A DNA stretch of 62,214 bases. It comes from Opitutales bacterium. Lineage in GTDB: Bacteria; Verrucomicrobiota; Verrucomicrobiia; Opitutales; UBA953. The translations under genes were made by a program, and so were the position numbers. Below, piece by piece: positions 11,012-25,313 of the stretch (position 1 is its first letter; each line of letters starts with the position of its first letter). The notes under the pieces are model-generated. The model saw nothing but the letters and a program-made list of their open reading frames with translations, had not been told where the DNA came from and did not search any database. The stretch is from assembly GCA_024697185.1 (NCBI GenBank), contig JAILGB010000028.1, positions 1 through 62,214 of the forward strand, read 5' to 3'.

Positions 11012-12634
11012 ATGAAAACCCCTCATTTCCCTGTTCTCAAAACAGCCCTGGCTCTGACGATTGCTCTCGCGGGAACGACTCTTTTCGCCGCCGAAGACAA
11101 GAGCATAAAAATCGACAAAGCCGTCATGGGGGAAAGCCTCACCGGCGCCGAGTGGAAAAATGTCAAAAACCAAAAACGTAAACTCGCAAATAAAATTTTA
11201 AATCTCATCCCGTCAGAAAAACCGAGCGACAAGGAGATCACCGCATTTTTAAAGGCTCCCGAAAATCGCATTTTGCTCAATCGCTGGTATTTTACGGACA
11301 CCTTCGGGAACGCCGTTGCGGCAGCCGCCTCCGGCAAAGAGAAAAAAGTGCTTTTCCAAGTCCTCTCCGACGAAGATTGGCTCAACGGCTTTCTTTATTC
11401 GGGACGACTCGACAATACGGACAATTTTTTGCCGTTTTTTATGAAAATCGCCGCAAGCGATAAAAAAATGCAGGACGATCCCGTGACACGAAAAATCGCA
11501 GTCGCAACCGCCGGCGAGTATTCCCGCCAGGAACAGACCGACGACAAGACGATGTTGCGCCGTTACCGCTTTTTTGCAAAAAGCTACCGCGAAGAACTGC
11601 TCAACAGCACCTTCAAGGATCTCGACTATTGGGATATGCGCATCATCTGCGGCTGGGCAAGTCACAACGGCAGCAATTGGGGCAACGAAACCTCCCTGCG
11701 CTGGTCCCGCGACAACGTCAAACAGCCCGAAGCCGGCTATGCAAGTCGCGGAGGAGAAATCCACCAGCTCAACTACAGACTTTTTAACATTTGCGGCGAC
11801 ACCGTCCAAGGCGCCGATTATTACAGAGCCTATGTTCCCGTATTTACCGAACGCGCCGGCATCAACCAGGCGGCGATGTCCTACGAGGTCGGAGCGGTCT
11901 GCGGCGGCGTTTCCCACTATGGGGCGAGTGCCGCCATCGCCAACGGCGTTCCCGCCGTCACCATGGGAGAACCCGGACACTGCGCTTTTGCGACACGCAA
12001 CAACGGCAAATGGATCGACAACAACAGCATTGAATGGAAACGTTCGACCCACTGGACACAAACCGGAGAACGGGAATGGGCGTTCCTTTTCAATATGCAA
12101 GATGCGTTTTCCAACAAAAAAGACTGCATCGCCGCAATGCAACGGATCGCCATCGCAAAACTTTTCCAAAAAACCCAAAATCTGCCGGGCGCCGCAGAAA
12201 TCGCAGTCCAAGCCATTGAAACCCAGCCGATCAACTACATCGTCTGGCAATACGCGACTGACATTATCGCCGCCCAAAAAAAACAGGATCCCGCCGTTTG
12301 GCAAAAGCTCAACGGAATCGCCCTCCAAGCTTTTTGCAAAAAATATCCCAATGTCGGCGCGCGTTGCCTTCAAAAACTTGTTTATCCCCGTTTGATGCCC
12401 CTCCTCAACGATGACAAAAAGAAAGTGGAAATCCTCGCCTCTTTTTGGAATGCGACAGAAACGCACGGTCCGGCGTCATGGGAAATGGAAACGTTCTTTG
12501 ATGCCCAAAAATCCTTTGCGGGAACGGCGAGCGACGCTTATCTCAAAGCCACAAAAGCCGCCGTCAAAGGCAAACAGCAGATCGAAGGCGTTTTTGACAA
12601 TTGGGCGGCTGGCAACGAACCGCTAAAACGATAA
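11012..12634 (+). CDS. Secreted protein with transglutaminase-like core
   Basis: This 540-residue protein begins with a signal peptide (MKTPHFPVLKTALALTIALA, then GTTLFAAED). In the middle, VGAVCGGVSHYGASAAIANG is followed by GEPGHCAFATRNNGKWIDN, giving a Cys, a His and an Asp in the order and spacing of transglutaminase/papain-like folds. I infer a transglutaminase-like domain at about residues 285-345; the flanking regions are helical. Substrate and role are unknown; it may cross-link or cleave an envelope protein. It is one of few plus-strand genes and stands alone, with a terminator downstream. An in-frame GTG at 11006 would only add two residues. Confidence 0.7.
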   Translation: MKTPHFPVLKTALALTIALAGTTLFAAEDKSIKIDKAVMGESLTGAEWKNVKNQKRKLANKILNLIPSEKPSDKEITAFLKAPENRILLNRWYFTDTFGNAVAAAASGKEKKVLFQVLSDEDWLNGFLYSGRLDNTDNFLPFFMKIAASDKKMQDDPVTRKIAVATAGEYSRQEQTDDKTMLRRYRFFAKSYREELLNSTFKDLDYWDMRIICGWASHNGSNWGNETSLRWSRDNVKQPEAGYASRGGEIHQLNYRLFNICGDTVQGADYYRAYVPVFTERAGINQAAMSYEVGAVCGGVSHYGASAAIANGVPAVTMGEPGHCAFATRNNGKWIDNNSIEWKRSTHWTQTGEREWAFLFNMQDAFSNKKDCIAAMQRIAIAKLFQKTQNLPGAAEIAVQAIETQPINYIVWQYATDIIAAQKKQDPAVWQKLNGIALQAFCKKYPNVGARCLQKLVYPRLMPLLNDDKKKVEILASFWNATETHGPASWEMETFFDAQKSFAGTASDAYLKATKAAVKGKQQIEGVFDNWAAGNEPLKR

Positions 12635-12671
12635 AAAAATTGCCGGCTGTTTGCGCAGCCGGCATTTTTTT
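12633..12671 (+). terminator. Rho-independent terminator, probably bidirectional
   Basis: TGCCGGCTG and CAGCCGGCA form a 9-bp GC-rich stem with a 6-nt loop, preceded by seven A and followed by seven T. It sits between two convergent genes and can serve both strands. Confidence 0.9.
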
Positions 12672-12686
12672 GCGGGAACGGCAAAA

Positions 12687-13415
12687 CTATTCCGTCGGCT
12701 TCGTCCCGTTACATTTTGGGAATTGGCTGCAGGACCAAAAAGTTTTTCCGGCGCAACGCCCGCGTTTTGCCTTTTTCAAAACCATCTGCGCGCCGCATTT
12801 CGGACAAGCGGGAGATGCTTTTTCGGGAACGCCGTCTATTGCGGGAACACCGTTTTCAGAAGCGTTTTTTTCGGGAACGGCTTTTTTCGCCTGTCGCTGC
12901 GGGAACGCCATTTTCGCTGACGCGACATGCTTCGGTGTGTTTTTTTTGAGCGCGAGCCACAATTCATCCATGGAAGACGAAAGACAACGCGTGTCGCTGA
13001 CAACCGGCATAAAATTATTGTCGCCGTCCCAACGCGGAACGACATGACAGTGCAAATGTTTGGGAATGCCGGCTCCGGCGGAAGCTCCGATATTAAAGCC
13101 GATATTAAAACCGTGCGGGTGGAGCGTTTCCGTTATAATTTTTTGCGCGAGCGCGATCGTTTCCATCAGATCCGCGCGCTCTTCCTCCGTCAGATCGACA
13201 AGCGACGGCACGGCACGATACGGGATCACCATGACATGCCCCGCATTATACGGGAACGCATTCATCACGATGTAACAGGTCTTGCCGCGATAAAGCAAAT
13301 GGACTTTTTTTTCGTCACTTTGCCTGGGAATCTCGACAAAGGGATCTTCCCACTTGGGACCGTCTTGCTTGGCGCTGACATAAGCCATCCGCCAAAAAGG
13401 ATAAAGCATTTTCAT
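12687..13415 (-). CDS. HIT-family hydrolase fused to a topoisomerase-type zinc ribbon
   Basis: Residues 36-160 form a HIT domain with NAGHVMVIPYR and the histidine triad HLHCHVVPRW (His120, 122, 124), as in Ap4A hydrolase/phosphorylase-type proteins that cut nucleotide phosphoramidates or dinucleoside polyphosphates. Residues 203-238 form a zinc ribbon of the kind found at the C-terminus of DNA topoisomerase I (Cys204, Cys207, Cys229, Cys235). The linker between them (about 165-202) is unusual: its tripeptides FPQ, VPE, VPA and VPE are each encoded by a copy or near-copy of the CGTTCCCGC word, four in some 90 bp of coding sequence. The start is 3 bp after the ribF stop, so the two are co-transcribed. 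Confidence 0.85.
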   Translation of the reverse strand: MKMLYPFWRMAYVSAKQDGPKWEDPFVEIPRQSDEKKVHLLYRGKTCYIVMNAFPYNAGHVMVIPYRAVPSLVDLTEEERADLMETIALAQKIITETLHPHGFNIGFNIGASAGAGIPKHLHCHVVPRWDGDNNFMPVVSDTRCLSSSMDELWLALKKNTPKHVASAKMAFPQRQAKKAVPEKNASENGVPAIDGVPEKASPACPKCGAQMVLKKAKRGRCAGKTFWSCSQFPKCNGTKPTE

Positions 13416-13418
13416 AAT

Positions 13419-14390
13419 TCAAGTTTTGTTTTTTTCTAAAAATTTTTGAAGCGCCGCAGTCTTGTCTTGTTCCAATTGCGACTTTAAAGCCTCAAGCGAT
13501 AAAAATTTTTGTTCGGGTCGCAAAAAAGAAATCAGGGAAACACGGACCTTCGCTCCGTATCCCGGCACGGGCGTTCCCGCGGGAACGAGCAAATGACTTT
13601 CGAGCAGAGGCGCCATTGTTTTCAAATCACCGATTGTCGGCCGCACACCGTAATTGGCGACACCTTCAAAATCCGTTCCCGTCTCCAAATCAACAAGCCG
13701 GACAGCATAGGCGCCAAACGGCACCCGTGTTTCCGGAGTCCATGGGACATTGAGCGTCGGGAATCCGATCGTCCTGCCGAGACGATTGCCGCCGATCACC
13801 GTTCCCGTCATAAAATAATCTTCCGACAACATCGCATTGGCAGCTTCTATCTGCCCAGATTCGAGAGCCGCGCGAATTCGTGTCGAGGAGACCGGCGCGC
13901 CCTCCCATTTTACGGCGGGAACGGCTGTCGAGTCGATTCCCGACCGCATCGCCAACACGGGCAAGTCTTTTGTATTACCGGCGCGGCGGGAGCCAAAATG
14001 AAAGTTTTCACCGCAATAAACCGCCGCGAGAGAAGGAATTTTTTTCTTCAAATAACTCAAAAAATCTTGCGCGGGAATGGCGGCGAACTCGCGCGTGAAC
14101 GGCTCGCAGACAATTTTTTCAAAACCGCAATCTTCAAAAATCTGAAAGCGCTGTTCGAGCGGATAAATCAATTTTACAGCTCCCGTTCCCGCGAAAAGCA
14201 CTTGCGGGTGCGGGTCAAAAGTCAAAACGGCGGGAACGCCGTTCGCCTTCCGCGCTCCCGCGACTGCCGCTTGAAAAATGGCGCGATGACCGCGGTGCGC
14301 GCCGTCAAAGACACCCAAAGCCAAATGAACGGGACGCTCCCGGTCCGGGAACGCCCGGGCTGCATTTTGCAATGTAACGATTTTAGACAT
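13419..14390 (-). CDS. ribF: Bifunctional riboflavin kinase / FAD synthetase
   Basis: Start ATG at 14390 (MSKIVTLQ) gives 323 residues. The N-terminal FAD synthetase domain shows LGVFDGAHRGHRAIF (HxGH-like nucleotidyltransferase motif), LTFDPHP and CGENFHFGSRRAG, and the S-S-T-R-I-R motif (VSSTRIRAAL). The C-terminal flavokinase domain has GGNRLGRTIGFPTLNV and GVANYGVRPT, with LESHLL. It makes FMN and then FAD from riboflavin. It is notably rich in the GGGAACG word (about ten copies in under 1 kb), including a perfect 16-bp palindrome CGTTCCCGCGGGAACG at 13572-13587 where two copies overlap. It precedes the HIT gene by 3 bp. Confidence 0.95.
   Translation of the reverse strand: MSKIVTLQNAARAFPDRERPVHLALGVFDGAHRGHRAIFQAAVAGARKANGVPAVLTFDPHPQVLFAGTGAVKLIYPLEQRFQIFEDCGFEKIVCEPFTREFAAIPAQDFLSYLKKKIPSLAAVYCGENFHFGSRRAGNTKDLPVLAMRSGIDSTAVPAVKWEGAPVSSTRIRAALESGQIEAANAMLSEDYFMTGTVIGGNRLGRTIGFPTLNVPWTPETRVPFGAYAVRLVDLETGTDFEGVANYGVRPTIGDLKTMAPLLESHLLVPAGTPVPGYGAKVRVSLISFLRPEQKFLSLEALKSQLEQDKTAALQKFLEKNKT
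13572..13587. repeat. Two overlapping GGGAACG words forming a 16-bp palindrome
   Basis: CGTTCCCGCGGGAACG inside ribF: a left-hand and a right-hand copy of the recurrent nonamer share the central CGCG. It encodes part of LLVPAGTPVPG. Confidence 0.9.
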
Positions 14391-14447: not shown

Positions 14448-17400
14448 TTAGAAGCGCGCGCGCAAACCGACATTCACACCGTGCGATGTTGTCTCTTCGA
14501 AATCGCTTTCATACGTGTAGCCGACGTTGAGCGACCACGAATTGTCGAAACGGTATTCGACGCGAGGTCCGACGGAGAATGTGGTTTCGTTTGCGTAATA
14601 GGCGGTCGCCTTTGTCTTGGCTCCGGCGTAACTGCCGCCCTGGAATGTCGCTTTGATATCACTATCGTTGTCAACAAACTCATGACGCAAGGCGCAATCG
14701 AGAGAGAAACGCCACTGCGCGGACGGAGCCCAAGTCAAGCTCGTTCCCGCAACACCTCGCACGGACAGACGATCGTAAGAATCGACATTATAAGCGATAG
14801 CCGCCGAACCCGTTTCTTCAAACTCGTTGACGATCATATAATCCAAATCAAGACCGACATACGGCGAAAGGTGGAAACTGTCGCTAAGGATGAAGACGCG
14901 GCCCAATGTTGCGGACAAGCCGAAATCATAACCGTTTGTCTCGCCTTCCGCGACGCCCAAAACCGTGTTGCGTTTTGTATCAAAAGCGCTAAAGCCGAAA
15001 TGCGCGCCGAGCCCGAGATAGGAATAGTCATCGAGCATTTGCTGGGCGTAGAGTCCGATGCTAAGCGTGTCATTCTCATGCTTGCCGGCGCTGTTGTGCA
15101 GATTCGCTTTGCCGGTGACATAAGTGACATTGACGCCCGCAAGCGCTTTTTGGGAGAGGAGCGTATCGACACCCGCCTGCAATCCGTAAGAACGGAGATC
15201 GTAGTGCGGATTGCCGCCGTTGCTGGTTTTCGTGTCGGAGGAACTGCCAATCGCATTGGCATAGCCCATCGTCTTTTCACGCGAGACGATATTGTAAACG
15301 GCGCGATCGTAGCGGCGCTGTTCGAGTCTCTGGCGCAAAAGATCGTTTTCCGTCCGAGCCACCGAGAGAGACAAATCGCTCAAGGCGCCGAAGGAGACAG
15401 GCGAGAACGCCGACAAAATTGCGCTTTGGTCGCCGGCGGACTGATTGACCGCCGTCCAAATCGCGCTCGTCTGATCACTGTCAATCAAATCTGCAAAACC
15501 GCCCAAGCCCTTAGCGTGTTCGGACGCGATATACTGATTGACAAAAATCTGTCCGGAACGAAGTGCCGCACTCAAAACGGTGCCGTCGCCCAATTTGAAT
15601 GTCGCCGCACTGTCGATTACGGTCGTTCCCGCAACAGTCATCAAGACAGAATCTGCCGGGATCGCGCTCAAGACAACATTTGCCGTGCTCGTGAATGTCG
15701 CATCGCCCGTTACCGCAATCGGCACTGCGGAGACGACATAATCGCCACTGACGAGCAAATTGCCCGCAATCGTCAAAGCCGGAGTCGATCCCGGTGTCAA
15801 CGATGCCGTTGACATGCCCGAACGGACATTTACAGTGCCGCCATTGTCAACCGTAAGATTGCCGCCGACGAGAGCCCCGCTCAATGTCAGTGTGCTGCCG
15901 GACAAAACGCGCAACGAAAGCGCGCCCGTGCCGACCGGACCGGAAGCCTTCGCCGTGCCGTCGATCGCGAGCGTTCCCGCGGATGACGCGTTAAGCATCG
16001 TATAATAATTGTCAAGATTCAAGAGCGACGTTCCCGTCGTCAACTTGAGGGTGGCATTGTTTGCCGCCGATGCGACAAAATTAATCGTTCCCGCCACAGA
16101 GGCAAGATCCGAAGCCGTCATATTGACCGTGCCGGTTTCAATTTCCAACGTTCCCGTAAATCCGCTTGCCGGTGCCCAATCGAGTTCGCGCGCGGCACTC
16201 GCATACTTGACACGCAGCGCACCGCTGCCCGCCAAGGTCGCGTTGTCACCGAGCGTCGCCGAATAATTCTTGGAAGAATAGACCAGCGTCGCTCCGCTGT
16301 CGATCTGCACCGTTCCCGCGAAATCGCTCGCCGAGGAAATTTCGGTCGTTCCCGAAACAAATTCAAGCGTTCCCGTTCCCGCGATCACTTTGCCGATACT
16401 GGCTGTTCCGCTCGTTCCCGCCACTTGGAGAGTGGCTCCGGAGGCGATCGTGACTGTTCCGTTCGAGCTTGTGCCCAAGGAATTTGTAACAACAGTCGTT
16501 CCCGCATTGAGGGCGATATCCAAATCCGTGCCAAAATCTGCACCGAGCGTCAGCGTTCCCGCGCCCGTCTTAGTGACCGTCGCGGTAGAATCGCCCTTGA
16601 GCTTGCCGCCGAATGTGAAATCGGAACTCGTGTCAAAATCGAGCGTCGCCGAGGATTCGACAATGATCGAATTGTCAAGATCCGAGACAATCGTCAGCGT
16701 ATTGCCACTGCCGACCTGCAAAAGCAAATCGCCGGAATTGCTGCCGAGATCGCCGAGCTTTGCCGTCGTCGAAATCTTCAGGCTACCGCTACCGGCGAAA
16801 TCACCCGTGAGCGTTCCCGCCGCGGATGTCGCCAAACCGGCAACTTCAAACGTTCCCGCATCATCGATTGAAACCGTCTGCGTGGAGTTGAAGGTTTGCA
16901 CCGCAAGCGTTCCCGCCATAACACGCGCCGAACCCGTAAACTCCTTGCTCAATGTCCATTTGCCCATGCCCGTCTTCTTGACTTGGGCCGCGCCCGCCGC
17001 CAAATCAAAGGTCGAGCCTTCGCCGCCGTTAACTAACGTCAAAACTGCACCGGCAACAGGATTTGTCGTCCACGAACCCGTGATGACAGCGCCGCCCTTG
17101 TCGCTTTCGTGAGAGAAGGTCGCACCGCTGCTGCTCGCCGTATAAACCGCATCAATCGTGCGATAAGTCGAACCGCTCATCGGGACAAGCGAACCGGATT
17201 CAAGATTCAAAGCCGTTTCAAGAACCGCCGCGCCGGCAAAAACAATCTTCGTGCCGGATTCGACGGATGTCACCGCCAAAGTGCCGCTCGACAAAGTGAT
17301 CGTGCCGCTGATATCGATGTTCCCGCCGATAAAGGCCTTTGAACCGCCCGTCTTGGAGATCGAGCCGCTGCCGCTAACCGCGCCGGCGACAATAACGGCG

Positions 17401-20400
17401 CTCTTGTTGTTTTCAGGAGCCAAAACCAATGTCGTTCCCGACAAAAGCGAGACCGTCTCCGTTCCCAGTGTCGCCGCCTCCGTCAACTTCAACGTGCCGC
17501 CGACAAGAGAAAGTTTTCCGGTGAACCCGTCATTAGCCTTGCTCAATGTCAAAGTATGATCTGTCGCATCGATTTCGATCGTTCCCGCGCCCGACAAACT
17601 TGCCTTGCCCTGGGTCATATCGGCGTCAACATCCAAAAGGATTGACGCGCCAGGATCCGCCTTGAAGACGGTCTCCGACGGCGAAAGCATCGAACCGGCG
17701 CGCACGAGCGTCAATTTGCCCGAAAGCGACTCGACCGTTCCCGCGAAGCCGTCAATATCCGTCGTCAAGGTCATCATGCCCGCCGTCTGAATCGCTGAAG
17801 CCGTTTTCGCAGACGCGAGACTGCCGATTGTCACCTTGTCACCGATAACGATCGTGCCGCCGTCAAGCGTCGCCGAACCGACCGCCACTGCGGTCGTGGC
17901 CGCGCTCAAATCGACAGTCGCCGTATTCGTAACCCTCAAATCGCCCAATGCGTAATTCGCGCCGGCGAGTTTGAGCGTTCCCGCCCCTTCCGCCAGCATA
18001 TTGAGATTGTTGTCAATATCCGCATTGACCGTGACGAGGCCGTTCGCGTCTTCGACGGCAAACACCAGCGTTCCCGCATTGCCGGTCGTGGACGTGCTGT
18101 AGGCGAAATCGGAAATCGCCAATGTGTTCGCGCCCGCCAAATAAATCAAGGCTGTATCATTGTAGGCATATTCCAGTTTCGCCAATGTCAAATTCCCGGC
18201 GTCAATCGTGACCGCCGAAGCGTTCGCAAGGCGCAAGGTCGCGGAGGAGCTGAAATTGTTCAGATTCGCCGTCGAATAATTGCCGAGGGCGAGCGTTCCC
18301 GTAAAGCCGTCCGCCGAGCCTGCGGCAAAACTCAATACGTTTTGATTGCCGACCGTCAAAGTTCCTGCGCCCGACAAGGAAGCTGCAATCGTCGTCGAGC
18401 CGTCAACTGCGCCGATCGCGACAAAAGAGCCTGCATCATGGTTGACAATTGCCGTCGCGTCCGCGGCAACAGAAAGTTCAGCGGCGGAGAAGGTTCCGCC
18501 ATCGGCAAATTCGAGCGTTCCCGCGGAAACCTTGACCGTTCCCGCAAAGGCGCTGTTGTCCGTCTCGGTCGTCAAAACCGTTCCCGCGCCGATTTTTTCA
18601 AGCGTCGCACCGGTATCACCACTGAGAGTCGAAAGTTTTCCTTCCGTCAGCTGCACCGTCGCAGAATCGCTGATCGCGAGCATAATGCTGTTGATCTTGT
18701 CAAACTTTGCCGTTCCCGCGCCGGTGATCGTCAATGTCGTGTTCTTGGAACCCGTCAAATCGTTAAAGGAAGCGTCCGATGTCGCCGCCAGGGCGATCTT
18801 GAGATTTTTGGAAACCTGAATCGAGCCCAAATCGCCCGTCGTCGTTCCCGCGATCGTCAAAACGGCGCCGTTGCCATTAACAGCAAGCGTTCCCGCGTTT
18901 ACAGCCGTAAAGCCGTCTGCGAGCGTCAAATTATTGAACTCGATCCGGTTGTAAACATTTGCCGTTCCCGCGAGCGTCACCGCTTCGCCTCTCGGATCAA
19001 ATTTCAGCGTGCCGAAACTCTGGAGATTGCCGGCAAAAGTCAACGCGCTCGTCGCTTTGACCGTCAATGTCACGTCCGGCGCGACACCGAGAACGCTCGT
19101 TGCTGTCGAGCTGTTGCCGCCGACTTCGAGCGTCGAGCCGCCCGTCGCGACAATCGTGCCCCAAGTGCTGAGAGTGCCGGCATTGAGCGTTCCCGCCGCA
19201 ATCTGCACCGTTCCCGAAAGATCCGCCGTCGTGACAGCGAGAGTTCCGTCACCTGACTTGATCAACGTTCCCGAAGCGGTCAGATCGTCAACCGTGAGCG
19301 TTCCCGCGGCGGTGTCGATCGTCGAGGTCGTTCCCGCGCTTTGTGAAAGTGTCGCCGCAAGCGTTGCCGTTCCCGTCGAAGCGATCCGTGTTGCGTCATC
19401 GATTGTCAGCGTTCCCGACGACGTGAGCGACGAACCGTCCGCCATCGAAACCTGCCGCAAACTTTGCGCCGCCGTATTGGTCAACGCCAATGTCGCATTC
19501 TCGCCCAAATCAAAGTTTGTAGAAGAGACCTTTGAGGAAACCGAAACCGTTGTTCCCGCCGACATTTGCAGCAGGTCAACACCGAGAGTCGATGTGTTGT
19601 CATTGACAAAATTCAATGTTCCCTGACTGACGACAACCTTGCCGAGCGTGGAACTCGCTGCGAGTTCCAGCGTTCCCGTTCCCGTCTTCGTCAAAGTGGC
19701 GGTCGTTCCCGTCGCCGTATCAAATGCCGCCGTTTTCGAATCCGCAACATTGATAAGGGCTTCGGTGCCGACAATCGTCAATGTCTCCGCCGAGCTATAA
19801 TCGCAGAGCACATTCAACGTTCCCGCGATTTGGATAGAAGAACCCGAAAGTTTGCCGCCTGTCGCCAAGGACGCGAGCGTCAATGTCGCACCGTCCGCGA
19901 TAATGGCACCGTCCGCGAAATTGTTGGCGCCGACATTATGGAAATAAACGGAGCCGCTCGAAACATTCAGATAATTTCCTGTGAAGGAATGACCGTCCTG
20001 ATTCAGGCTGAAATTGACACTGTCTCTAAAGACAAGGGCGCTGACGGAAGCGTCCGTATCCAATGACAACAGCGATCCCGCCCAAGCGGAGGCGATCGTC
20101 ACATAGGAATCGTCCGCAATCGCCTGGCCAGTCATATTGCCGCCGGACACCTGTGTCTTTTCCCACAAGGAATCCGTCCATTTGCTGAGTCCGACGTCGT
20201 TTGCCCAGACATACGTTCCCGCACGCTTGACGGTGATGCCGTCGGTGTTTGAGAAATCCAAATACAAATCGGCGGTGCCGTCGCTGAAATTGATCGTCGC
20301 GATTGTCGCTTCGTTGTAAGTGACCGTATAAACATCGTTGGTCTCCGAAGCCGTGAAGGTCAGTTCGCTCCAGTCCAAATCCCTGTTGTCACTGCCTCTG

Positions 20401-23400
20401 AATGTCACCGCGCCGGAATACAAGGCATAGCTGTCACCGATTGCGGCGGCGTTCTCCAAATCAAACGTCACATTGACATCGTTGATTTGATAGGAGGCGT
20501 TGGCATATTCGCCGGAAGCCTGATAGACAAACGAAAGCTGATTGCCCGAAATGCCGCCGATTGAAACATCGTTAACGACTGTCGTTCCCGTATAATCGGT
20601 GCCGTAGGTCAGTTCTGTCTCGCCGGCTGTGCTTTCCGCGAGCATATTGTTTTTGTCGAGAGCGACTTGATTTTGCAGGAGCAAAACATTTGAAACCTTT
20701 GCATTTGACAGTTCCGCCGTCGCGCTCAAGACGGTCAAGGAACCGGAAATCGCCGAATTTTTGACAAGAATCGTCGCATCTCCGGACATTGTCTCCTTGC
20801 CAATGATCACATTGGCTGCCAGGCGTCCGTCGTTGACGACCTCAATCAGTTTTCTGGACGCGTCCGTGCCGTAAATCGACAAATCGCCGGCCTGCACCTG
20901 CAAGCTGCCGTTGTCAACCAAAACGCTTTCAAGCTTGAAATCCTCGACAGCCTCGGTAAAATCAACGGTCGCGCCCATTGTTCCCGAGACGGACAACGAG
21001 CCGCCGGTGACAGCGACGTTGCCATAAAATGTCGCCGAATTCCGAACCTCCATACGACCTTCTCCGCTGACGGAGAGGGTTTCGGCAACATCACCCAAGA
21101 TGCCGCCGGAGACCGACAAGGTCTGACCTTTGTCGATTGTAAAGCGTCCCTTGATTCTGCCCGTATTTTCAACGCTCACCTTGCCCGACACCGCCGAAGC
21201 GGCAAAATCGATCGTTCCCGCATTGCGGATCGTCATATCTTCGCTCAAAACCGAATTCAGATTCGCGGTAATCGTAGCATGGGAAGTGTTGTCAAGATCT
21301 GTTCCCGCCGACGACAAGGCGAGCGTCAGCGAAGGAACGATGATCGTGCCGTTGTTGCTGACAGAACCGCCGCCGCTGAGGACAAGGCCGACATCGCAGC
21401 CCGACAAGTGGGAGTTGGCGTTGACTGCCAAGGTCGCTCCCGAAACGACATCAATCGCTCCTGAGGCCACACTGATCGTTCCCGCCAAAGTTTTTGTTCC
21501 CGCATCCACCAGCGTCAAGGTATCCAAAGCCAGCGTGCCGTCAACAGCGCTAAACATGCTGTTGCCATAAAGCGTTGCACCACCGACATTCAAAATTCCC
21601 GCATCGAGGAAAGTCGCGCCGTCGAGGACAGTAATATCCAAAGCTGCGCCCGCGCTCGCGCCCGCGACAACCTCCACTCGCGCGCCATTGGCGATCGTCA
21701 GATCGTTTGAATTTGTCGTCACGATCGTTGCCGACAAGTTGGTTGCCAAACCGGCATTGCCGATCGTCGCGCCGTCCTGGAGTTGCAGTGTGCCGGACAA
21801 TGTCGCCGCCGCAACAGTGCCGCCGAGAACAACCGTCTGATTGATTTCACCCGTGGTGCTCGTTGACAAAAACGCCGCGCCGGCATCGACTGTCAGCGTT
21901 CCCGTCGCATTGAAGGCACCTGTTGTGCTGACCGTTCCCGACTTAACCGTCACCGCACCCGCACCGGTAATGGCGCTTTGCAGTTCTTTCGAAGTGTTGT
22001 CGGACAAATTGAAAACCAGTTCCGTGCCGGCGGCAAGTTCGATTTCCGACGGTCTGCCAAAATTGCCCTGCACTTCCAATACGCCGCCGCTAACCGTCAC
22101 TTTTCCTGTAAAATCCCGATATTGGGCGATATTGTTGTTCTGCGTTCCCACGAGAAGCATCGTTCCCGCGCCGGATTTGGTAAAGCCGTAGCTCTCCGTA
22201 TCCGCCTCGATAAAGGTCGTTCCCGCCCGCAAAACGGCACCGGACTCCACATTGAAAGTCGCCGCATTGGCATTTTGCAGTTTGACGAGCATCGCGCCGA
22301 TCTCACTTGTATAGCCCGTCTTGGCATTGATCGTCATCGACTTGGCGTCGATCAAATAAAAATCGGAAGTATCGACACCCGTAATCGAGCCGCCGTAGAG
22401 ATTGAAGACCAAACCATCAACAAGCTGCGTCGGGACATCCGTTCCCGCACCGTCGTAAACTTCGTCCTGACCGATGTAAACATTGCCGTAAACGTCAATC
22501 GTCGCCGTTTGGGAATTGGAAGAAAACGAATCGGAACGAATCAGCGCCAGCGTTCCGTCTTCACCGACCGTGATCGAGCCGTCAAAAACAGGCGAGCCCG
22601 TTCCCGCCGCGCCCAAAGCGACCGTTCCCGCGTCAATCCGCAAAGAGCCGTTCAAAGTGCCTTGACTGGTGAGCACCAGCGTTCCCGCGCCCGTCTTTGT
22701 AAAGACTCCGGTCTCACTGATCGTTGCGCCCGTCAAATCAAACCAAGAATTGCTGCCGACATCAAAAGTGATATACGAACCGGCCTCAAACGCCAAACGG
22801 TCGCCAAGTTGATATTTCGACTCTGTTTTATTGGGAGCCTGATTGGCCTCCAAGGAGAAAATCGCCGCATAGGACGCGCTTGACGCGTTGGAGATGTTGA
22901 TCTTCGAAGCACCGCTCAAAGCGCCTTGGACAAAGGAAATCTTGGAGCCGCCCGCCATCGAGATGACCGTATTCTTCGCCGTATCGCCCTCATACATTGC
23001 CGAAGCGTTGTCGAGAACCAGTTCGCCCGTCGCCGCGAGGGAAATCGACGGAGTGTTCAAAGAAGACTTCACTGCAGCGAACAAGGTGCTGCCGGTGCCG
23101 ATTTCAATGCTCTCCGCCGCCAACTTCGTATTGACGTTCAGCGTGCTGTCAAGCAAAGTCAAGGCCCCGCTGACATTGACGGAGCCGGTCGTTCCCGCCA
23201 GCGTGTAAACTGTGTCGGCGGCAACAACATTCAAAACGCTCGCATAAACTTCGCCCGAAACGTTGACCGTCACAGCGCTCTGGCCGCTGACATTGTCCAA
23301 ATAAAGCGCCGAACCGGCCGCCGCCGTGCCGCCGACCTGCTGGCCGTTAAAGTTTGTCGCCGTCCAAATGCCCGAACTGCCCGTGGATGTGCCCGAACTC

Positions 23401-25313
23401 CACGCGATAAAACTGGCAGATGTCGCCGTGAAAATGAGATTGTTGTCCGAATATGTCCACAATCCGTCCGCACCCGACGACAAAATCGTCGCGATCGTTC
23501 CCGAATTCAACGCCGACAAAATCGCCGACAAATTCGTATCCGCATCCGCCTTGAAAATAACGCGCGAAAGATCGCTCCCGTAAAATGGAATACCCGACAA
23601 ATTGATGGAGCCCGAAGAGAACGTGATCGCGCCGTCAATCGTCGTCGCAGCGGCTCCGTAGGCGGAGGCGCCAATCGTCACTGCGACATTCGTCAATGTC
23701 GCATCCGTCAAAGTGTTCGTTCCCGAGAGCGACAGCTTGCCGTTGCTCAATTTCAAGTTGTTCACCGTCGCAGACTCCGCGAGCACGATCGTGCCGCCGA
23801 GAGTCGCAGCCGGCAACGTTGTCGAGCCGCCAAGATTGAGCGTTCCCGTGTTAGTAAAGGTTCCGGAAATCGTCAAACCGCCGCTCAAGGTCAAAATGCC
23901 GGCATTGTTGAGATTTCCACTAAATGTCTGAGCCACATCCGCCGTCACTTTCGCGCCAGCGGCAATCGTCACATTGCCCTTGCCCAAAGCTGTTGCCGAC
24001 TGGGCGATCACCGAACCCGCAGAAATCGTCGCGTTGCCGGTAAAAGTATTTTCTCCCGAGAGCAACAACGCACCCGAACCTTCCTTGGTCAAAGCGCCGC
24101 TGCCGGAAATAACTCCGGAAGCCGTCAATGTCCCGGAAAGGGAAAGCTTCAATCCGCTCGTTCCCGAAATGGCAATCGGAGTCGTGATTGTCGACGACGG
24201 ATCCGAGGTGGAAATCGTCACATTGTTCAGGGAAACCGAAATCGAATCGCCCTTGATACCGCCGGAACCGAGTTTCAATGTGGAACTGTTGACATTCAAA
24301 GTCGCGCCGGACGCCACCGTCAGCCCTTTGAGCTCCGTATCGCCGTCCAAGGTGAGAGTGCCGGCATTGACCGCAAACATCTTGCCGCCAAACGTCGCGC
24401 CCTTGCTCAAGGTCAAAGTACCGGCTCCCGATTTAACGAGACTGCCGGAAGTCTGGGAAGACATGCTGGACAATTTCTCCGCGAACGTCATATTGTTACC
24501 GTTCGTGTTAAATGTCGCATTGCTGCCGAACTGAATATTGGTCGCAGAAGAAGTGCTCGTCGCCGTCGCCTTGAGGGTGGCGTTGGCAAACTGAACCGGC
24601 TGCGCCTTCGACTGCGCGATACCGCCGCTGCCGAGCCCGATTGTCAGCCCGCCGTCAAAAAGGTAGGTTCCCACATTGCCGACCGTGATCGAGCCGACAT
24701 TGATCGTTCCCGAACCCGTCATCGTATGCGTCATGTTGTTCGCTGCCATCGACATGGCGCCGGAAATGTTCAATGTTCCGTCAACAGTCAGCGTTTTAAG
24801 ACCCCAAGCGTTTGAAAAAGATGTCGCATTGACCGTGGCGCCGCTGCCGATTGTGAGCGAACGCGTTGTCGCATTGGCGTTTCTTGTCGCAATCTCATTG
24901 AGCGTCATGTTCGAGTTGATGACAATATTCGCCGCAGCACCTTTGATCGTCAATTCTCCGGAAAGTTTATAGGTTCCCGCGCCGGAAAGCGTCAGCGTGT
25001 TATTGTCTTCGACGACAATCGATGCGGCATTCAGATCGTATGAACCCGTCTCCACTGTCGTATTGGCGGAGACCGTCACCGTTCCCGCCGTAACAGATGT
25101 TCCCAAAGTAAGTGTCGATCCCGCCATCGAAAGTGTCGCGTTGTCGCCCGAAGCGAATTTCGCGGCAGCGGAGCCGTTCAACCAATTTTCACTCGCATAA
25201 TCCCAATTTCCCGTAGCGCCGCCGTTCCATGTCAACGAATTGGCGCCAAGCGCAGACGCGCTCATTGCCGCAGCGGCAAAAAGGGTTGAAAAAAGAAGTT
25301 TTTTGGATTTCAT
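14448..25313 (-). CDS. Giant autotransporter adhesin-like protein (3621 aa)
   Basis: The product starts with a signal peptide (MKSKKLLFSTLFAAAAMSAS) and the LTWNGG...GNWDYASENWLNG element typical of autotransporters of Verrucomicrobiota. Then follow some 3200 residues of repetitive beta-helix-type passenger: tens of short units of the form S-A-G-T-L-x-(V/L), T-K-(S/T)-G-A-G-T-L and I-x-x-G-A-T-L, i.e. passenger-associated (PATR-like) repeats. The last 300 or so residues, from about 3310, form the translocating beta barrel (for example YGLQAGVDTLLSQKALAGVN, YIGLDLDYM-like strands) ending in the outer-membrane signature GVNVGLRARF with terminal Phe. It should be displayed on the cell surface. 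It holds 61 of the GGGAACG words by hand count, all in one orientation, mostly in the frame that reads Ala-Gly-Thr. It is flanked by about 130 bp of non-coding DNA upstream. Confidence 0.93.
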   Translation of the reverse strand: MKSKKLLFSTLFAAAAMSASALGANSLTWNGGATGNWDYASENWLNGSAAAKFASGDNATLSMAGSTLTLGTSVTAGTVTVSANTTVETGSYDLNAASIVVEDNNTLTLSGAGTYKLSGELTIKGAAANIVINSNMTLNEIATRNANATTRSLTIGSGATVNATSFSNAWGLKTLTVDGTLNISGAMSMAANNMTHTMTGSGTINVGSITVGNVGTYLFDGGLTIGLGSGGIAQSKAQPVQFANATLKATATSTSSATNIQFGSNATFNTNGNNMTFAEKLSSMSSQTSGSLVKSGAGTLTLSKGATFGGKMFAVNAGTLTLDGDTELKGLTVASGATLNVNSSTLKLGSGGIKGDSISVSLNNVTISTSDPSSTITTPIAISGTSGLKLSLSGTLTASGVISGSGALTKEGSGALLLSGENTFTGNATISAGSVIAQSATALGKGNVTIAAGAKVTADVAQTFSGNLNNAGILTLSGGLTISGTFTNTGTLNLGGSTTLPAATLGGTIVLAESATVNNLKLSNGKLSLSGTNTLTDATLTNVAVTIGASAYGAAATTIDGAITFSSGSINLSGIPFYGSDLSRVIFKADADTNLSAILSALNSGTIATILSSGADGLWTYSDNNLIFTATSASFIAWSSGTSTGSSGIWTATNFNGQQVGGTAAAGSALYLDNVSGQSAVTVNVSGEVYASVLNVVAADTVYTLAGTTGSVNVSGALTLLDSTLNVNTKLAAESIEIGTGSTLFAAVKSSLNTPSISLAATGELVLDNASAMYEGDTAKNTVISMAGGSKISFVQGALSGASKINISNASSASYAAIFSLEANQAPNKTESKYQLGDRLAFEAGSYITFDVGSNSWFDLTGATISETGVFTKTGAGTLVLTSQGTLNGSLRIDAGTVALGAAGTGSPVFDGSITVGEDGTLALIRSDSFSSNSQTATIDVYGNVYIGQDEVYDGAGTDVPTQLVDGLVFNLYGGSITGVDTSDFYLIDAKSMTINAKTGYTSEIGAMLVKLQNANAATFNVESGAVLRAGTTFIEADTESYGFTKSGAGTMLLVGTQNNNIAQYRDFTGKVTVSGGVLEVQGNFGRPSEIELAAGTELVFNLSDNTSKELQSAITGAGAVTVKSGTVSTTGAFNATGTLTVDAGAAFLSTSTTGEINQTVVLGGTVAAATLSGTLQLQDGATIGNAGLATNLSATIVTTNSNDLTIANGARVEVVAGASAGAALDITVLDGATFLDAGILNVGGATLYGNSMFSAVDGTLALDTLTLVDAGTKTLAGTISVASGAIDVVSGATLAVNANSHLSGCDVGLVLSGGGSVSNNGTIIVPSLTLALSSAGTDLDNTSHATITANLNSVLSEDMTIRNAGTIDFAASAVSGKVSVENTGRIKGRFTIDKGQTLSVSGGILGDVAETLSVSGEGRMEVRNSATFYGNVAVTGGSLSVSGTMGATVDFTEAVEDFKLESVLVDNGSLQVQAGDLSIYGTDASRKLIEVVNDGRLAANVIIGKETMSGDATILVKNSAISGSLTVLSATAELSNAKVSNVLLLQNQVALDKNNMLAESTAGETELTYGTDYTGTTVVNDVSIGGISGNQLSFVYQASGEYANASYQINDVNVTFDLENAAAIGDSYALYSGAVTFRGSDNRDLDWSELTFTASETNDVYTVTYNEATIATINFSDGTADLYLDFSNTDGITVKRAGTYVWANDVGLSKWTDSLWEKTQVSGGNMTGQAIADDSYVTIASAWAGSLLSLDTDASVSALVFRDSVNFSLNQDGHSFTGNYLNVSSGSVYFHNVGANNFADGAIIADGATLTLASLATGGKLSGSSIQIAGTLNVLCDYSSAETLTIVGTEALINVADSKTAAFDTATGTTATLTKTGTGTLELAASSTLGKVVVSQGTLNFVNDNTSTLGVDLLQMSAGTTVSVSSKVSSTNFDLGENATLALTNTAAQSLRQVSMADGSSLTSSGTLTIDDATRIASTGTATLAATLSQSAGTTSTIDTAAGTLTVDDLTASGTLIKSGDGTLAVTTADLSGTVQIAAGTLNAGTLSTWGTIVATGGSTLEVGGNSSTATSVLGVAPDVTLTVKATSALTFAGNLQSFGTLKFDPRGEAVTLAGTANVYNRIEFNNLTLADGFTAVNAGTLAVNGNGAVLTIAGTTTGDLGSIQVSKNLKIALAATSDASFNDLTGSKNTTLTITGAGTAKFDKINSIMLAISDSATVQLTEGKLSTLSGDTGATLEKIGAGTVLTTETDNSAFAGTVKVSAGTLEFADGGTFSAAELSVAADATAIVNHDAGSFVAIGAVDGSTTIAASLSGAGTLTVGNQNVLSFAAGSADGFTGTLALGNYSTANLNNFSSSATLRLANASAVTIDAGNLTLAKLEYAYNDTALIYLAGANTLAISDFAYSTSTTGNAGTLVFAVEDANGLVTVNADIDNNLNMLAEGAGTLKLAGANYALGDLRVTNTATVDLSAATTAVAVGSATLDGGTIVIGDKVTIGSLASAKTASAIQTAGMMTLTTDIDGFAGTVESLSGKLTLVRAGSMLSPSETVFKADPGASILLDVDADMTQGKASLSGAGTIEIDATDHTLTLSKANDGFTGKLSLVGGTLKLTEAATLGTETVSLLSGTTLVLAPENNKSAVIVAGAVSGSGSISKTGGSKAFIGGNIDISGTITLSSGTLAVTSVESGTKIVFAGAAVLETALNLESGSLVPMSGSTYRTIDAVYTASSSGATFSHESDKGGAVITGSWTTNPVAGAVLTLVNGGEGSTFDLAAGAAQVKKTGMGKWTLSKEFTGSARVMAGTLAVQTFNSTQTVSIDDAGTFEVAGLATSAAGTLTGDFAGSGSLKISTTAKLGDLGSNSGDLLLQVGSGNTLTIVSDLDNSIIVESSATLDFDTSSDFTFGGKLKGDSTATVTKTGAGTLTLGADFGTDLDIALNAGTTVVTNSLGTSSNGTVTIASGATLQVAGTSGTASIGKVIAGTGTLEFVSGTTEISSASDFAGTVQIDSGATLVYSSKNYSATLGDNATLAGSGALRVKYASAARELDWAPASGFTGTLEIETGTVNMTASDLASVAGTINFVASAANNATLKLTTGTSLLNLDNYYTMLNASSAGTLAIDGTAKASGPVGTGALSLRVLSGSTLTLSGALVGGNLTVDNGGTVNVRSGMSTASLTPGSTPALTIAGNLLVSGDYVVSAVPIAVTGDATFTSTANVVLSAIPADSVLMTVAGTTVIDSAATFKLGDGTVLSAALRSGQIFVNQYIASEHAKGLGGFADLIDSDQTSAIWTAVNQSAGDQSAILSAFSPVSFGALSDLSLSVARTENDLLRQRLEQRRYDRAVYNIVSREKTMGYANAIGSSSDTKTSNGGNPHYDLRSYGLQAGVDTLLSQKALAGVNVTYVTGKANLHNSAGKHENDTLSIGLYAQQMLDDYSYLGLGAHFGFSAFDTKRNTVLGVAEGETNGYDFGLSATLGRVFILSDSFHLSPYVGLDLDYMIVNEFEETGSAAIAYNVDSYDRLSVRGVAGTSLTWAPSAQWRFSLDCALRHEFVDNDSDIKATFQGGSYAGAKTKATAYYANETTFSVGPRVEYRFDNSWSLNVGYTYESDFEETTSHGVNVGLRARF

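Follow-up and report, generated by a model that had tools for sequence, protein, structure and literature searches.

The stretch of DNA analysed here (the window, 62,214 nucleotides from an Opitutales bacterium of the gut) carries a gene for a HIT-family protein, in which the HIT domain (PF01230, residues 35-128 of the 242-aa protein by Pfam) is followed by an interdomain linker and a C-terminal zinc ribbon (Table 1). Among proteins of known structure, its sequence relatives are of the HIT / Ap4A phosphorylase type (6af2, 3ano). Disorder is predicted in the linker by AlphaFold2 (pLDDT <50 for residues 172-199), in line with a flexible connection between the HIT domain and the ribbon. The ribbon is the sole PF01396 match in this genome and is 64% identical to the ribbon of a NERD nuclease-type protein in a Nitrosomonadales MAG. 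A NERD-ribbon gene is also found in one congener (G005), and the ribbon matches inspected outside the HIT protein are parts of NERD proteins, topoisomerases and others. Beyond the 3' end of the gene, a strong terminator-like hairpin (GCCGGCTG..CAGCCGGC, then a T-run) lies between convergent genes at window positions 12630-12680, with a copy of the word described below directly adjacent to it.

Table 1. Position of the HIT/zinc-ribbon gene, its parts and the word sites in and beside its linker. Percentiles are scores of the sites against the extended motif, ranked among coding sites.
Feature	Position in window	Strand	Extent	Remarks
HIT-family protein gene (ATP adenylyltransferase / Ap4A phosphorylase-like) with C-terminal zinc ribbon	12687..13415	-	242 aa	ORF, Pfam, NCBIfam (below equivalog cut-off), PDB 6af2, 3ano
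Zn_ribbon_Top1 (PF01396)	12690..12806	-	residues 204-241	Pfam
Interdomain linker ASAKMAFPQRQAKKAVPEKNASENGVPAIDGVPEKASPA	12806..12923	-	about residues 165-203	
Exact word CGTTCCCGC	12899..12907	-		encodes AFPQ; extended motif gcgaaaatggCGTTCCCGC; 93rd percentile
Variant CGTTCCCGA	12871..12879	-		encodes AVPE; A-tracts on both sides, KKAVPEK; 98th percentile
Variant TGTTCCCGC	12841..12849	-		encodes GVPA; 34th percentile
Variant CGTTCCCGA	12823..12831	-		encodes GVPE; 84th percentile
Exact word CGTTCCCGC	12672..12680	-		just past the HIT stop codon, beside the terminator-like hairpin; 94th percentile

The linker contains one exact copy of the 9-mer CGTTCCCGC and three one-base variants of it. 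The 8-nt core CGTTCCCG is kept in two of the three variants, and each of the three represents a variant type that is 4-6x enriched across the genome. An earlier note on this DNA had described the FPQ, VPE, VPA and VPE of the linker as each being encoded by a copy of the word or a one-base variant, and had placed a further copy after the gene near 12672; both descriptions are correct, and the downstream copy is exact. With four word-like sites in 96 bp, the linker ranks among the highest 0.16% of 96-bp windows, although the cluster was picked post hoc. The set of word-like variants behind the density figures was itself selected on data from this genome. Coding clusters of the linker's size number 43 and are spread over 37 of the 651 proteins sampled. 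Further, among 39-aa windows matching the disorder-prone composition of the linker, 4.9% contain at least four words, and the word load of the linker is thus not exceptional for its composition class, while four words in 117 bp still belong to the upper tail of these matched windows. Tandem structure was looked for within the linker and none was found; by their coordinates, its words are unevenly spaced (18, 30 and 28 bp apart).

The word is highly abundant throughout this genome. The window alone has 133 copies of CGTTCCCGC against 1.85 expected, and the 1.59-Mb genome has 3488 (1826 forward, 1662 reverse) against 48 for a reversed-word control, interspersed and in both orientations as is characteristic of uptake sequences. 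The distribution is also restricted by lineage, another characteristic of uptake sequences. The word is enriched in all eight members of the genus, which includes an Opitutales MAG from water-buffalo colon, with 3060-4396 copies in six of the genomes and 743 and 336 in the other two, and it is at background in 30 relatives elsewhere in the family and order. The two word-poorer members (G001 with 743 copies and G006 with 336) are still about ten-fold above the control, and their lower counts could reflect decay, an early stage or a dialect.

Finer word statistics were obtained with a simple ORF caller from 822 kb of this genome's 1589 kb, 795 kb of a word-rich congener (G007) and 800 kb of a word-free relative (G009). 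Most tolerated variants are changes at either end of the word: at the last base, T reaches 10.9x and A 6.1x the Markov expectation, and at the first base T reaches 4.2x. Intergenic copies have an A-tract on each side (-8 to -4 and +10 to +13), which gives the consensus AAAAAAATGGCGTTCCCGCGAAAAT. The word also occurs as inverted pairs that overlap (CGTTCCCGCGGGAACG), one of them in the window at 13572-13587 and 31 in the 822 kb of genome. Elsewhere in the window, a 3621-aa autotransporter-like gene (14448-25313) is densely populated by words, all on the + strand, many of which encode AGT in GAGTLTL-type repeats.

Words become denser as protein constraint falls. In alignments of 95 ortholog pairs with G009 and 258 pairs with G007, exact words per kb rose from 1.14 and 1.36, respectively, where the protein is conserved, through 2.18 and 2.12 at intermediate identity and 2.90 and 3.04 where identity is low, to 3.84 and 4.20 in insertions. 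Word density is 3.94 per kb in intergenic DNA compared with 2.07 per kb in coding DNA overall, so that the word is depleted under strong protein constraint and enriched between genes, as uptake sequences are. Within genes, segments rich in Lys, Ala and Pro (K/A/P-rich) hold 11.0 words per kb in this genome against 2.07 elsewhere, and 4.39 against 1.77 in G007; no word was found in the 730 such residues of the word-free G009. In the aligned classes, exact-word counts exceed synonymous-codon shuffles about ten-fold or more.

The alignments also bear on how words arise. Between 84 and 86% of the coding words of this genome are at ungapped homologous positions, and only 1-3% are wholly within insertions between congeners (5/554, and 12/479 in the reverse direction). 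Congeners have words at the same site in 30-34% of cases, compared with 4-5% at matched positions, with orthologues averaging 61% identity. The ungapped positions and the same-site sharing indicate that words are mostly gained in place and are then kept above background. Tandem arrays include the word in their unit in 13 of 59 cases, and 49 of 2810 core words are within tandem arrays. Insertion-driven growth was rejected as a general route of word gain, because words are mostly ungapped and few are inside insertions. Single point mutation of near-words as the sole route was unsupported, as the 9-mers homologous to words that are not shared have diverged slightly further than the matched background.

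This word load has a measurable effect on the proteome. The most over-represented tripeptides in this genome are AGT (6.5x) and VPA (6.3x), followed by RER, VPV and RSR, and both AGT and VPA are within the top three in G007 too; the corresponding values in the word-free G009 are 1.03x and 0.86x. VPA and AGT tripeptides conserved between the compared genomes are almost all encoded by the word in both, with too few controls to address selection at the DNA level. The word together with its flanks (A-tract, CGTTCCCG, A-tract) encodes K-K-A-V-P-(A/E)-K-K when read in the favoured frame, which makes Lys/Ala/Pro-rich linkers and tails its natural coding home. The word shapes the proteome through a peptide bias. 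The earlier note had proposed that a DNA-level signal shaped a protein through growth of its linker. The first part of this proposal holds at the scale of the proteome, where the excess of AGT, VPA, RER, VPV and RSR falls to near 1x in the word-free relative; the second part, growth by word accumulation, is not supported.

Protein tails that did grow in word-bearing tandem units are found elsewhere in this genome. In the primary sigma factor RpoD (contig C10, 13324-15471), the N-terminal tail consists of 13 VPAKKA-type hexapeptides, encoded by an 18-bp unit (AAAGCCGTTCCCGCGAAG) repeated 13.2 times in tandem. Similar K/A/P-rich RpoD tails are word-free in other members of the family and contain words (VPAKK and similar) in word-rich congeners, and the RpoD tails of the two word-poorer congeners have none. 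The RpoD core of this species forms a very long branch in the tree (3.98, compared with 0.01-0.34 for congeners), which suggests fast evolution or an unusual placement of the species. Similarly, the N-terminal tail of a 420-aa protein with no Pfam match (contig C17, 23230-24492) is made of a 33-bp unit repeated 12.2 times (KPSVPAKKAAV). Most of these units contain the word, and the counterpart in a congener has a K/A-rich tail without it. Word-bearing tandem growth thus does happen in this genome, for example in the RpoD tail, but not in the HIT linker.

The word invites comparison with the uptake signal sequences (USS) of Pasteurellaceae, which have a 9-bp core and A/T-rich flanks. It shares with the USS both this general architecture and its rarity in coding DNA, most of all under strong constraint, and differs from them in its core and in having A-tracts on both sides. 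Likewise, the DNA uptake sequences (DUS) of Neisseriaceae are short, lineage-specific words that number in the thousands, occupy both strands and are also found within genes. The density here is comparable, with 3488 copies in 1.59 Mb against 5918 copies in 2.4 Mb for kingDUS (PMC3630211). However, the sequence is unrelated and the phylum different, and a role in uptake is suggested here by analogy. DUS dialects mostly have a stop codon in one frame (PMC3630211), while this word has a stop in none.

Uptake sequences have been described as rarer in coding sequence and under strong constraint (Findlay and Redfield 2009, as cited in PMC7811141), and a model in which they spread by biased uptake and recombination is summarised in the same source (PMC7811141). 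As far as their account is relayed there, Findlay and Redfield (2009) envisaged a coevolution in which uptake words gather in coding DNA under weak constraint and bias the proteome, which is what is seen here. In comparison with that account, the extended word here encodes KKAVPAKK in frame and is found above all in disordered tails rich in K/A/P, in some cases as part of tandem arrays. ComEC, DprA and PilT-family genes are present in this genome, but equally in word-free relatives, and competence genes therefore do not single out the word. A search of the literature on DNA uptake sequences gave one loosely related paper for Verrucomicrobia and nothing specific for Verrucomicrobiota, and among the papers listed for the 9-mer CGTTCCCGC all occurrences were in unrelated work. 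The effect is of a kind known from Neisseria and Haemophilus, in a setting that is apparently undescribed so far.

The linker and ribbon form a C-terminal extension restricted to this species. A full-length HIT orthologue was found in 61 of the 79 family genomes searched, and among these 79 the linker and ribbon were present in this genome only, so that a single assembly carries the fusion and no HIT-ribbon fusion was found in the others. In the other family genomes, HIT matches stop before the linker or meet a stop codon, and the six congeners that have the gene encode proteins ending in ..KKFTPKHFGES, ..KKFTPPHVA or similar, directly before the stop codon. The gene after HIT is visibly xseA-like in five of the six congeners (a by-eye call on ..VTEFTRRIK.LVENTFGGVW). 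In G007, the HIT gene adjoins this xseA-like gene, the homologue of which is on a separate contig in this genome. In all five word-rich congeners read, the short N-terminal tail of the xseA-like gene itself includes a word, which encodes AGT ahead of TVTEFTRRIK. Because the linker is absent from orthologues, its length has nothing to vary over, and the origin of its four words is not directly readable. Both checks named in the earlier note, stepwise linker length across orthologues and identical linker residues in orthologues from word-free genomes, thus lack any material to work on. The rearranged neighbourhood, the single ribbon in the genome and the NERD-type relatives of that ribbon suggest that the HIT-ribbon fusion probably arose at the rearrangement.

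We consider it likely that the HIT protein gained its extension first, that the extension then took on the usual word load of the genome, and that uptake drive is behind that load. The HIT gene would have lost its old stop codon at the rearrangement and gained a C-terminal extension made of a disordered linker and a NERD/topoisomerase-type zinc ribbon, with rearrangement and ribbon capture presumably being one event. As new and weakly constrained sequence, the extension would have acquired the word load typical of such sequence in this genome, and its four words may have been gained mainly in place by substitution. The genome-wide load is most likely driven by biased DNA uptake and recombination, a form of molecular drive as in Neisseria and Haemophilus, and by analogy with these systems the word is probably a DNA uptake tag.

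A linker that arrived already bearing its words is a less likely origin. The HIT gene might have been fused to a word-rich stretch of this genome, either an intergenic region or the K/A/P-rich linker that leads up to a ribbon in another protein, in which case no words would have accumulated in place. Intergenic DNA and K/A/P-rich segments carry 3.9 and 11 words per kb, and very similar VPA-rich tails are found in other proteins. The rearranged gene order around HIT would also fit such a fusion. However, no donor segment was found, and this genome has no second ribbon; we regard this origin as unlikely.

The growth of the linker by repeated insertion of the word, as the earlier note read it, is considerably less probable still. 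Word-containing tandem arrays do exist elsewhere (the RpoD tail, 18 bp x 13.2, and the 420-aa protein, 33 bp x 12.2), but the linker shows neither the word-sized length steps nor the tandem array of a segment grown from word units, its words are irregularly spaced, and there is no orthologue with a shorter linker, the extension being present only here. Genome-wide, words are mostly ungapped, with only 5/554 and 12/479 wholly inside insertions and 49/2810 core words in arrays. Least credible of all is that VPE, VPA and FPQ were kept for the sake of the protein with the DNA word as a by-product: flexible linkers are, as a matter of general knowledge, often proline-rich, but word counts are far above synonymous-codon shuffles of the same proteins, the same peptides are unenriched in the word-free relative, and the K/A/P-rich RpoD tails of word-poor congeners persist without the word.

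Gain of the extension followed by acquisition of words thus remains our preferred reading of the HIT locus. The broader proposal is that an Opitutales (Verrucomicrobiota) genus has its own uptake-sequence system, with an extended motif that encodes KKAVPAKK in the favoured frame, and that drive for this motif would have rewritten and in places expanded disordered Lys/Ala/Pro tails of core proteins, including that of RpoD, and would fill new linkers such as the one in the HIT protein; on this our judgement is evenly poised. If the word is an uptake signal, the short list of bacterial groups that tag their DNA as their own would gain a further entry. It would also offer a gauge of how a DNA signal can bend proteins, with a six-fold excess of two tripeptides and core-protein tails that have been rebuilt. 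The HIT linker is a case in which new, unconstrained protein carries the word load of its genome, and words found in a linker of this kind are not to be taken as a sign of protein function.
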